A stretch of 64,000 nt of DNA. Origin: Arthrobacter zhaoxinii (GTDB lineage Bacteria; Actinomycetota; Actinomycetes; Actinomycetales; Micrococcaceae). Where the stretch lies: positions 248,001-312,000 of the forward strand of contig NZ_JANFLT010000006.1 of NCBI RefSeq assembly GCF_024385505.1, given 5' to 3'. The notes beneath the pieces are model-generated. The model did not search any database, was not told the origin of the DNA, and worked only from the letters and a program-made list of their open reading frames with translations. Shown here piece after piece: positions 38,866 to 42,207 of this stretch; within the stretch, counting starts at the first letter, position 1, and each line of letters begins with the position of its first letter. A program made the position numbers and the translations under genes.

Positions 38866-39732
38866 ATGGTTTCGCGAGTGTTGGCGGCCACGAACGAGCA
38901 GCGGAGCACCCTTGCGGCACTGCTGGACAATATCAGCTACGAAATCATGCCTTTTAAGACCGCCAAAGACAAAGTTGTGGCGGAAGTGCCAACAAACATC
39001 CCCCTGACGGTCACGGCTACCGGCGGCAAGGGACTCGAGCCCACCTTGGAGACGGCCGTCTACCTCCAGAACCGCGGCTACTCCGTAGCTCCTCATATTC
39101 CGGCACGTTTGGTACGGGACGTCGAAGAGCTCGATACCGTGGTGCGCCGATTGGAAGCAGCCAATATCCATAGGGTTTTCATCATCGGGGGCGATGTTCA
39201 AGAGCCTGCCGGCGAGTTTTATGATGCGCTCGGCCTCTTGAAAGCGTTGAAGGACCGAGGGCACCACTTTACCGACGTCGGCATCGGCGGTTACCCGGAG
39301 GGGCACGCGCTAATCGACGATGCTGTCCTGGAACAGGCACTGGGCGACAAAGCGCCTCATGCGACCCGGGTTCTGACCCAGATCTGCTTTGATCCGCGTA
39401 CCTTCATGGACTGGGGATCCCGCATGCGCAGGAAAGGCATCAACCTGCCGATTTATGCCGGCATGCCCGGGCCGGTCAGTCGGCAAAAACTGCTTCGTGT
39501 GTCTGCAGGGCTTGGACTCGGGCAGTCAGCCAATTTCCTCAAGAAGCAGCAGAACATGTTCTGGCGGTTCTTTAGCCCCTCCGGTTACGAGCCGACGCAG
39601 CTCATCAAGGGGCTGGTCCAGGGGCTTCCGTCCAGCGAGGCCGCTATCAAAGGCTTCCACATTTTCACCTTCAATGACCTAGCCCATACTGAAGCCTGGC
39701 GTCGGGCCATGCTTGAGCAGACACGCGGATAG
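38866..39732 (+). CDS. metF: Methylenetetrahydrofolate reductase family protein, copy 1
   Basis: A 288-residue MetF-like TIM-barrel flavoprotein. NIPLTVTATGGKGLEPTLET, then IHRVFIIGGDVQEPAG and GIGGYPEGHALID, match the folate- and FAD-binding blocks. In this operon the reaction probably runs from 5-methyl-THF to 5,10-methylene-THF, recovering the methyl group released by the O-demethylase at 40798. AAGGAGG at 38855-38861 supports ATG 38866 over an upstream in-frame start. The gene is followed 12 bases later by purU. A second family member is at 51130. Confidence 0.86.
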   Translation: MVSRVLAATNEQRSTLAALLDNISYEIMPFKTAKDKVVAEVPTNIPLTVTATGGKGLEPTLETAVYLQNRGYSVAPHIPARLVRDVEELDTVVRRLEAANIHRVFIIGGDVQEPAGEFYDALGLLKALKDRGHHFTDVGIGGYPEGHALIDDAVLEQALGDKAPHATRVLTQICFDPRTFMDWGSRMRRKGINLPIYAGMPGPVSRQKLLRVSAGLGLGQSANFLKKQQNMFWRFFSPSGYEPTQLIKGLVQGLPSSEAAIKGFHIFTFNDLAHTEAWRRAMLEQTRG

Positions 39733-39744
39733 AGGAGAACCGTC

Positions 39745-40659
39745 ATGGACAGATCCGGGACAACTCCCGCACCGCTTCCCCAGGAATCTGCTGCGCCCTA
39801 CCCTGCTGCTGACGATGTTGCGCGGCTCGTCCTTCATGGAACAGATCAATCCGGCATCGTAGCCGCCATCACCGAGGTTCTTGCCCGATTCGAGGGAAAC
39901 ATTGTTTCACTGGACCAACACACCTCGGACCCGGTTGGAGGCCGCTTTTTTCAGCGCACAGTTTTTACGCTTCCTGATCTGGCTGCCAATCTTGATTGTC
40001 TACGAGGGGCACTTGAGTCCCGTCTCGATGGTTTCGGCCTTGAATGGCAGCTGATCGAGGTGAAGAAGCGTAAGCGCGTGGCCGTCTTCGTTTCGAAATC
40101 GGATCATTGTCTGCTGGACCTTCTCTGGCGGCAGCGCCGTGGCGAACTGCCGATCGATATCACCATGGTCATCTCAAACCATCCGGACCTCAGCGAGGAC
40201 GTTCGACCCTTCGGCATTCCCTATTTCTATATACCGGCTGACAAGGAGAATCGAGCCGAGGCAGAGGCGCGCCAGCTGGAACTCATCGATGGGAACGTTG
40301 ACCTCATTGTCCTCGCCCGATACATGCAGATCATTACCGAAGAATTCATTGAGCAGGCAGGGGTCCCCATCATAAACATCCATCACTCATTCCTGCCGGC
40401 GTTTATCGGTGCGGCTCCTTATCGGAAAGCCAAAGAACGAGGCGTGAAGCTTATCGGAGCCACTGCCCATTACGTCACCAAAGACCTGGACGAAGGTCCC
40501 ATCATCAGTCAAGACGTTATTCACGTTACCCACCGTGAGTCTGTGGCCGATCTTCAGCGGCGCGGAGCCGATGTAGAGCGACGTGTGCTTTCGCACGCGG
40601 TCGAAGCCCACTGCGCGGACCGGGTGCTCCGGGACGGCAACGTCACAATCGTTTTCTAG
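39745..40659 (+). CDS. purU: Formyltetrahydrofolate deformylase
   Basis: A 304-residue protein with an N-terminal ACT domain (residues about 25-105) and a formyltransferase-like domain. VIILARYMQ-like text (LIVLARYMQIITEEF) and NIHHSFLPAFIGAAPY hold the catalytic Asn/His, and GATAHYVTKDLDEGPI the Asp. It hydrolyses 10-formyl-THF to formate and THF. Placed between metF and the demethylase, it should drain one-carbon units and regenerate free THF. The methylene-to-formyl step (FolD) is not encoded here and must come from elsewhere. Confidence 0.92.
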   Translation: MDRSGTTPAPLPQESAAPYPAADDVARLVLHGTDQSGIVAAITEVLARFEGNIVSLDQHTSDPVGGRFFQRTVFTLPDLAANLDCLRGALESRLDGFGLEWQLIEVKKRKRVAVFVSKSDHCLLDLLWRQRRGELPIDITMVISNHPDLSEDVRPFGIPYFYIPADKENRAEAEARQLELIDGNVDLIVLARYMQIITEEFIEQAGVPIINIHHSFLPAFIGAAPYRKAKERGVKLIGATAHYVTKDLDEGPIISQDVIHVTHRESVADLQRRGADVERRVLSHAVEAHCADRVLRDGNVTIVF

Positions 40660-40797
40660 CGCCGGATAGAGCCAAACGGGGCGGTGTTGGTTGACGGAGC
40701 CAGCCCCGAGGACGCCGTGGTTGCTGTAGCCGGGCCCGAGCCTTTTGCAACAGATTGCGCAAGCAGCACGTTTTACAACAACGAAAGGAAACCTGAC

Positions 40798-42207
40798 ATG
40801 ACCAACGCTTCCCTGCAAGAGGTTTTAGACGCGTCCGGAAACATCGTGGACCACCTGCGCAATGTGCAGGTCGGTGCCTACGTCTACCCGGTTGTTGCCG
40901 CGGAGTTTACTAACTGGCGTAACGAGGTGCGGTCATGGCGTGAATCTGCTGTGCTGTTTGATCAGTCCCATCACATGGACAACCTGTTTATATCCGGGCC
41001 GGGGGCGTTGCAGCTGATTTCTGACACCGCTATCAACTCGGTAGCCGCTTTTCCCGTGAACAAGGCAAAGCAATACGTTCCCGTCACCCCCTACGGACAC
41101 GTCATCGGGGACGGCATCCTGTTTCGGGAAGCCGAGGAGGAATTCGTATATGTCGGCCGGTCACCCGCTGCCAACTGGCTGCTCTACCACGCGGAAAAGG
41201 GTGGATATGATGTCGAACTGACGGCCGACCGGAGGTCACCTTCCCGGCCGATGGGGAAGGCCGTGTCTCGTGAATACTGGCGTCTGCAGATCCAGGGTCC
41301 ACGGGCCTGGGATGTCATCGAAAAAGTCCACGGCGGGCCGCTGGAACAGTTGAAATTCTTCAACATGTCCCATATGAACGTGGGAGGCACCGAGGTGCGG
41401 ACCTTGCGTCATGGAATGGCGGGAGCGCCCGGGCTGGAACTCTGGGGTCCGTACAAGGACTATGACAAGATTCGGGAAACCATTCTTGAAGCAGGCGCGG
41501 AGTTTGGGCTGGAACCCGCCGGAGCACGGGCCTATTCCAGCAACACCCTGGAATCCGGGTGGATTCCCTCACCGTTGCCCGGAATCTACAGTGGAGAGAA
41601 ACTGGCGGATTACCGTCAGTGGCTCGGTGCAGATAGCTATGAGGCCAACTCAGCCATTGCCGGATCGTATGTTCCCGAGAGCATCGAAGGTTACTACACC
41701 ACGCCGTGGGAACTTGGCTATGGATCGTTCATTAAGTACGACCATGACTTCATTGGGCGTGATGCCCTTGAGGCGATGGACGTGGAGGCACAGCGCAAGA
41801 AAGTCACGCTGGCCTGGGACGGCGATGACGTAGCAACTATCCACGCGTCGATGTACCAGAAGGACCAGCTGCCCTATAAGTTTTTCGACCTGCCAAATGC
41901 TAATTACGGAGCGTCGAATTTCGATTCGGTAGTCGATGAAGCGGGCCAGGTGGTAGGAGTCTCCATGTTCACCGGCTACAGCTGGAATGAGAAGCGGCCG
42001 CTTTCACTTGCGATTGTGAACCCCGATGTGGAGATCGGGTCGCACCTCAAGGTCGTCTGGGGCGAGCCCGAAGGCGGGACCAAAAAATCCTCCGTCGAGC
42101 CGCACCGCCAGTACGAGGTCAATGTGGACGTCAGCCCCGTGCCTTTCTCAGAAGTTGTTCGCAAGGATTATACGGACGGCGGATGGCGGAACTCAGTGGT
42201 TGTGTAG
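40798..42207 (+). CDS. ligM: Tetrahydrofolate-dependent aromatic O-demethylase, LigM/DesA type (GcvT fold), copy 1
   Basis: A 469-residue GcvT-like protein. The characteristic blocks are [71 protein letters not shown] and [16 protein letters not shown], which I recognise from vanillate/3-O-methylgallate (LigM) and syringate (DesA) demethylases. It would move the methyl of an aryl methyl ether to THF, giving the free phenol and 5-methyl-THF. GAAAGGAAA precedes ATG 40798. It lies 138 bases behind purU, followed by two strong hairpins. Substrate (vanillate, syringate or methylgallate) is not resolvable. Copy 2 lies at 48425. Confidence 0.87.

Follow-up and report, generated by a model that had tools for sequence, protein, structure and literature searches.

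The return of THF limits the THF-dependent O-demethylation of lignin-derived acids. In Sphingobium SYK-6, the demethylase gene is organized in a ligM-metF-ligH operon and FolD takes part in the proposed route, as given in the available text of PMC6888825, and the MTHFR subfamily of this strain favours the oxidation of CH3-THF (available text of PMC13001107). According to the accessible part of PMC3621897, MetF and PurU are essential for growth of Methylobacterium on chloromethane, and the cmu pathway of Methylobacterium extorquens CM4 drains methyl-THF to formate by means of MetF, FolD and PurU. In Agrobacterium fabrum the LigM gene Atu1420 is accompanied by the adjoining MetF gene Atu1418, and purU is not mentioned in the part of PMC7797058 at hand. 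The mgaABCD genes of Pseudomonas NGC7 specify a LigAB-like dioxygenase, an alpha/beta hydrolase and an isomerase, according to the available sections of PMC12314914.

The window analysed here is a stretch of 64,000 nucleotides from Arthrobacter zhaoxinii that contains the gene set metF1-purU-ligM1. It resembles the SYK-6 system in combining a LigM ortholog with an adjoining MetF and a FolD encoded elsewhere, and it differs in that purU is present for ligH, that metF1 belongs to another group of MetF genes, the SYK-6 type being represented by metF2, and that a two-component regulator adjoins the operon instead of the MarR-type DesR. The proposed MetF-FolD-PurU drain is shared with strain CM4, whereas the methyl group is derived there from chloromethane via the corrinoid proteins CmuA/CmuB and would be derived here from an aryl ether via LigM; the comparison concerns the MetF and PurU parts. 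LigM with an adjoining MetF is common to A. fabrum and the Arthrobacter locus; in a tree calculated without Atu1418, the MetFs encoded at rhizobial LigM loci fall into a different group. A description of PurU together with LigM-type O-demethylation was not found in the literature searched, which left out most subscription papers, and metF, purU, folD and ligH are absent from the text of the dicamba demethylase paper PMC9404685. Since the MetF-FolD-PurU drain is already known for chloromethane, the new aspect is its pairing with LigM-type O-demethylation, a variant of known pieces. We assign a probability of about 0.75 to the reading that the locus is an acquired methoxyaromatic island in which LigM1, MetF1, FolD and PurU drain the methyl group to formate and a LigAB route processes the ring.

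Gene organization of the low-GC island

The genes metF1 (38866..39732; 288 aa, ATG start), purU (39745..40659; 304 aa) and ligM1 (40798..42207; 469 aa, ATG start) are located consecutively on the + strand with intergenic gaps of 12 nt and 138 nt, and each start is preceded by a purine-rich ribosome-binding-like sequence that was read from the letters. Inverted-repeat search and folding located two hairpins behind ligM1 on the + strand (42248..42361), the first at 42248-42298 (17-nt arms, 88%, -42.0 kcal/mol) and the second at 42330-42361 (16-nt arms, 94%, -27.7 kcal/mol). An earlier note made from the sequence had described this gene order as an operon ended by two hairpins. The coordinates and the inverted repeats agree with the order and with the presence of both hairpins, whereas no T run was seen by eye after either of them, so that they are at most candidate terminators.

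The operon is located at the end of a low-GC island of roughly 9.5 kb, which also carries ring-cleavage genes. The GC content of the region 32751-42207 is 58.5%, compared with 66.6% in the remaining window and with a minimum of 63.1% among 110 segments of the same size from five other stretches of the genome. The island opens on the + strand with the gene for a ligA-like dioxygenase alpha subunit (32751..33146), which matches PF07746 with 108.9 bits and the LigA equivalog TIGR02792 with 85.4 bits, under the cut-off of 108.6. It is followed by the gene for a ligB-like class III extradiol dioxygenase beta subunit (33139..34026; NF009903, 382.7 bits against a cut-off of 317), the start of which was chosen to follow ligA, as the longest open reading frame begins at 33100. 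The subsequent genes, again on the + strand, encode an MFS transporter (34019..35425; family match), an alpha/beta hydrolase (35422..36123; PF12697), a muconolactone-isomerase-like protein (36154..36429; PF02426, 100 bits), a GAF-domain histidine kinase (36475..38001; domain match) and a LuxR/NarL-type response regulator (37998..38666; family match). As the LigA subunit scores under the equivalog cut-off, we name no single substrate for the LigAB-like pair; protocatechuate, gallate and 3-O-methylgallate are candidates for ring opening by it. The hydrolase, a proposed methylesterase of the ring-cleavage product by analogy to mgaC of NGC7, and the proposed cleavage-product isomerase recall MgaC and MgaD of that strain, as far as these are described in the available part of PMC12314914. 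Unlike in NGC7, where demethylation is performed by VanA1B1 and not via THF and where the isomerase is of the SnoaL type, the isomerase-like gene is MIase-like (PF02426), and a SnoaL/NTF2-type isomerase next to LigAB and the hydrolase is lacking in the island. A similar gene set, extended by a DesA-like protein and an aldolase, is present in two further genomes, G115 (locus L136) and G101 (L150 and L151).

In all four close relatives compared, ligM1 comes immediately after an aldehyde dehydrogenase gene and is itself followed by a VOC gene, and the island is absent from this site; the genes ligA, ligB, those of the transporter, hydrolase, isomerase, kinase and regulator, metF and purU have therefore come in. 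The match to these relatives amounts to 85-92% on the aldehyde dehydrogenase side and to about 80% in ligM1, which apparently was exchanged or diverged alongside the arrival of the island. The aldehyde dehydrogenase gene of the window (31151-32641, + strand) marks the island edge, and none of the matches listed for it reached a specific NCBIfam cut-off. Downstream of the island, genes with CCG and LUD/LutB-type domains (44173-47113, + strand) constitute a lactate-utilisation-like cluster.

A 44-bp palindrome with 22-nt arms (38735..38778), detected as an inverted repeat, lies between the response regulator gene and metF1 and represents a candidate operator with a 20-bp core (38747-38766). In two other loci (L005 and L013), counterparts of the palindrome precede the metF match by 118-120 bp. 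Since a profile including the window sites would yield a circular score, these sites were left out; the metF1 site then scored 24.4, compared with 18.2 for the best of 30 shuffles, and one site in the five other genome stretches reached 16.7. A shared operator at ligA was rejected, the respective site (32676) scoring 12.8 and thus no better than chance, and no operator-like site was detected near metF in the clusters L136, L150 and L151. The neighbouring response regulator is a natural candidate to bind the palindrome, which alternatively may be the terminator of the upstream gene.

Assignment of the LigM and MetF proteins

The LigM1 protein reached 838 bits on the LigM model NF047885 (cut-off 580) and 614.6 bits on the DesA model, under the cut-off of 800. 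Exceeding the LigM cut-off does not in itself settle the assignment, because two DesA references do so as well, with 635 and 613 bits, although they score higher on the DesA model (850 and 835 bits). A tree of 116 rows was built by a quick method without bootstrap from 130 sequences, minus 13 near-identical rhizobial loci and duplicates, plus the SYK-6 protein. Both LigM proteins of the window are members of a 59-row clade of actinobacterial LigM proteins, the sister of which consists of SYK-6 LigM and a Novosphingobium plasmid protein, with the DesA references outside; the branch grouping LigM1 with SYK-6 LigM apart from DesA carries the value 99* in this quick-method tree. Moreover, the alignment of LigM1 with SYK-6 LigM, the structure of which has been solved, extends over nearly the entire length and includes a stretch of 12 residues and the motif RAY, which we take to hold the catalytic tyrosines and the substrate arginine of the solved protein. 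The DesA references show GPN.YP at the first of these stretches. The score under the DesA cut-off and the tree position led us to reject a DesA assignment, and the LigM/DesA-type protein of the earlier note thus resolves as LigM, predicted by its family to be a THF-dependent vanillate/3-O-methylgallate O-demethylase. Of four GCV_T matches in the genome, two are LigM proteins and none is DesA, which makes syringate doubtful as a substrate.

The GCV_T domain is shared with sarcosine- and dimethylglycine-type proteins, a placement that the earlier note had itself named as refuting its proposal, and since purU is common near folD and glyA elsewhere in these genomes, the island purU might belong to glycine-betaine metabolism. 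Such an identity of LigM1 is highly improbable and was rejected: against 838 bits for LigM stand 47.9 bits on the sarcosine oxidase model and 65.2 bits on the TMAO demethylase model, the E value of 1e-212 with SYK-6 LigM compares with 4e-9 for dimethylglycine oxidase, the tree contradicts it, and the ring-cleavage genes share the island.

MetF1 is a divergent methylene-THF reductase with the general MTHFR family domain and fold (PF02219, 46.4 bits, cut-off 24), which reached 60.3 of the 293.7 bits needed on the canonical MetF equivalog TIGR00676, and is proposed to act as a 5-methyl-THF oxidase. The PurU and MetF trees comprised matches longer than 230 residues that contained at most one stop, a split PurU of locus L041 being excluded. 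In the MetF tree, which lacks canonical MetFs, metF1 belongs to a 100/99 group of nine that is separate from the SYK-6 MetF group and from the rhizobial one; the edge of this third group is unsure because of long branches (L029 and L041). The earlier designation of metF1 as a MetF-type reductase beside LigM holds for the family, whereas the SYK-6 type is represented by metF2 (51130-51990, - strand), which falls into the SYK-6 MetF group. This gene is plainly a MetF that is missed by PF02219 (16.6 of 24 bits), and the view of MetF1 as the sole MTHFR of the genome was dropped.

The second pair of the window, ligM2 (48425-49831, - strand; NF047885, 888 bits) and metF2, is devoid of purU and is kept in the four close relatives and in two further Arthrobacter relatives (L148 and L149). 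Between both genes, an NMT1/THI5-like substrate-binding protein is encoded on the + strand (50150-51127) that may be part of aromatic-acid uptake; the gene is conserved at the DNA level in L148 and L149, and similar binding proteins occur near LigM in L005 and L010.

Recurrence of the purU-metF-LigM linkage

The earlier note had proposed a survey of genomes for this synteny. Among 297 genomes of the order, a LigM-family gene (E <= 1e-60) was detected in 21, with a score over the LigM cut-off in 15. PurU is encoded within 5 kb of the LigM-family gene in 14 of the 21 genomes, compared with 0.21 expected by chance under random PurU placement and rounded genome sizes, which shows the linkage to be common among those members of the order that possess LigM. 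In the remaining seven genomes PurU is not within 5 kb, and six still lack it at 10 kb; when only LigM proteins over the cut-off are considered, eight of 15 have PurU within 5 kb and seven do not. An MTHFR gene is present within 5 kb in at least 20 of the 21 genomes, and MTHFR together with PurU in at least 13, both counts being lower bounds since PF02219 misses metF2.

The best 76 of 342 matches, assigned by hand from record titles to 39 actinobacterial and 37 other named loci and with short contigs scored as misses, gave PurU within 5 kb in 13/39 actinobacterial (26 without) and 0/37 other loci. The respective values were 28/39 and 21/37 for MetF and 4/39 and 0/37 for FolD, and no Fhs was detected near LigM in either set (0/39 and 0/37) with the Fhs of this genome as sole query. 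The gene order varies: MetF-PurU-FolD-LigM (one locus), LigM-PurU-MetF (two), LigM-MetF-PurU (three) and MetF-FolD-LigM-PurU (one), which argues for selection on the gene set and not for one frozen operon. In Agrobacterium tumefaciens, Novosphingobium and Sphingobium, plasmids likewise pair purU-metF with LigM or DesA, so that the linkage is not exclusively actinobacterial and the suggestion of a distinct actinobacterial version finds no support in that form.

The PurU protein of the island scored 364 bits on TIGR00655 (cut-off 285.95) and contains ACT (PF01842) and formyltransferase (PF00551) domains. In a PurU tree of 43 rows it belongs to a 100/100 clade of 25 members, 24 of which are linked to LigM by the 5-kb rule; the remaining member stems from G101 (L150), where a DesA-like gene of the cluster is located at a distance of about 6 kb. 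Mapping LigM linkage on the tree required three changes, a value as low being obtained in none of 500 shuffles. The linked copies form three sets, namely the large clade, four plasmid copies of Agrobacterium, Novosphingobium and Sphingobium with a support of only 90/71, and a Yaniella/Enteractinococcus pair that groups with unlinked copies. The three changes may represent a mixture of gains and losses.

PurU and the proposed exit of the methyl group

A separate housekeeping PurU, encoded near glyA-folD, is placed in the other half of the PurU tree among unlinked copies, and the island PurU is therefore a second copy. The only FolD match of the genome lies beside glyA at C6:369551, about 80 kb away, as had been anticipated when a FolD from elsewhere was invoked; folD is part of the cluster itself in eight related loci (L013, L034, L036, L046, L118, L125, L133 and L150). 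The recycling by metF and ligH that the earlier note had described for SYK-6 matches the ligM-metF-ligH order given in the available text of PMC6888825. A ligH-type gene (Fhs) is absent beside ligM1 and metF1, and the genome has a single Fhs match, which is located on contig C2, whereas ligM is on C6. The assumption that purU takes the place of ligH is therefore valid for the operon and not for the genome.

From the observed gene identities, gene order, conserved linkage and island, we infer every reaction of the following route and the direction in which MetF1 works, as well as the substrates, the regulation and what becomes of formate. LigM1 would transfer the O-methyl group of vanillate and/or 3-O-methylgallate to THF, MetF1 would oxidize 5-methyl-THF to 5,10-methylene-THF, FolD would convert the latter to 10-formyl-THF, and the island PurU would hydrolyse this compound to formate and unsubstituted THF. 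Because hydrolysis by PurU is practically irreversible, it would pull the methyl group out and return THF to LigM1. The ring would be opened and the product processed by the island-encoded LigAB, hydrolase and isomerase, and ring breakdown would be finished by proteins encoded at C6:35.7-38.7 kb, an OMA tautomerase (483 bits, cut-off 440), LigK (385 bits, cut-off 304.5) and a LigJ-like amidohydrolase encoded between them.

The one-carbon drain is well supported by the gene neighbourhoods. Several observations count against it: PurU is lacking within 5 kb in 7 of the 21 LigM genomes, in 7 of the 15 with LigM over the cut-off and in 26 of the 39 actinobacterial named loci, MetF1 is placed outside the SYK-6 MetF group for which a direction is reported, and the Fhs of the genome might operate in the reverse direction, as has been suggested for LigH. 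Alternatively, PurU might be only an overflow valve or a supplier of formate for purines, with the main exit through reversed Fhs, yielding formate and ATP as proposed for SYK-6 LigH, or through C1 biosynthesis. We regard this as unlikely: an Fhs match is present here and in 11 of the 21 LigM genomes, yet it is lacking in the other ten and in the LigM loci among the best 76 of 342 matches, and a housekeeping PurU already exists besides the island copy. Even less probable is a main loss of formaldehyde from methylene-THF, enzymatic or spontaneous, or its use in glycine/serine synthesis with formate as a minor product. A spontaneous conversion of methylene-THF to THF was proposed for the Agrobacterium LigM-MetF pathway (available part of PMC7797058), but it leaves the repeated recruitment of purU, and of folD in several loci, unexplained.

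Beyond this locus, the chances seem evenly balanced that the drain to formate represents a second one-carbon exit of aryl O-demethylation. In this view, a separate PurU clade and a third group of LigM-coupled MetFs, in many cases together with FolD, make up a module that converts methyl-THF to formate in one direction only; the module would have been recruited to LigM/DesA loci on as many as three separate occasions, would be transferred among bacteria within a catabolic island and would forgo the ATP gained via LigH in exchange for a pull by which THF stays available. If so, the supply of free THF under a high flux of methyl groups would be explained by an exit that works one way, and a 13C-methoxyl group should be recovered as 13C-formate in a purU-dependent manner. 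The metF-purU(-folD) genes also provide a ready cassette for engineering.

Further observations concern individual loci. In Zafaria a DesA-like gene (L015:6461-7822) contains an in-frame stop, and in Nesterenkonia pannonica purU was matched as two overlapping pieces (L041:14480-15360); each case may reflect decay or a sequencing error. A Rhodococcus opacus plasmid (L118, 1-11134) carries a folD-purU-metF-DesA-like cluster with pabB and a Mur-ligase-family gene, and fdhD follows a few genes on, an arrangement that may unite the supply of folate with the oxidation of formate in a single catabolic cluster. On plasmid pLA3 of Novosphingobium pentaromativorans (L122, 10-6783), ligB-ligA-purU-metF are divergent from hydrolase-desA and accompanied by a SnoaL protein, a gene set that nearly equals that of the window except that LigM is replaced by DesA.
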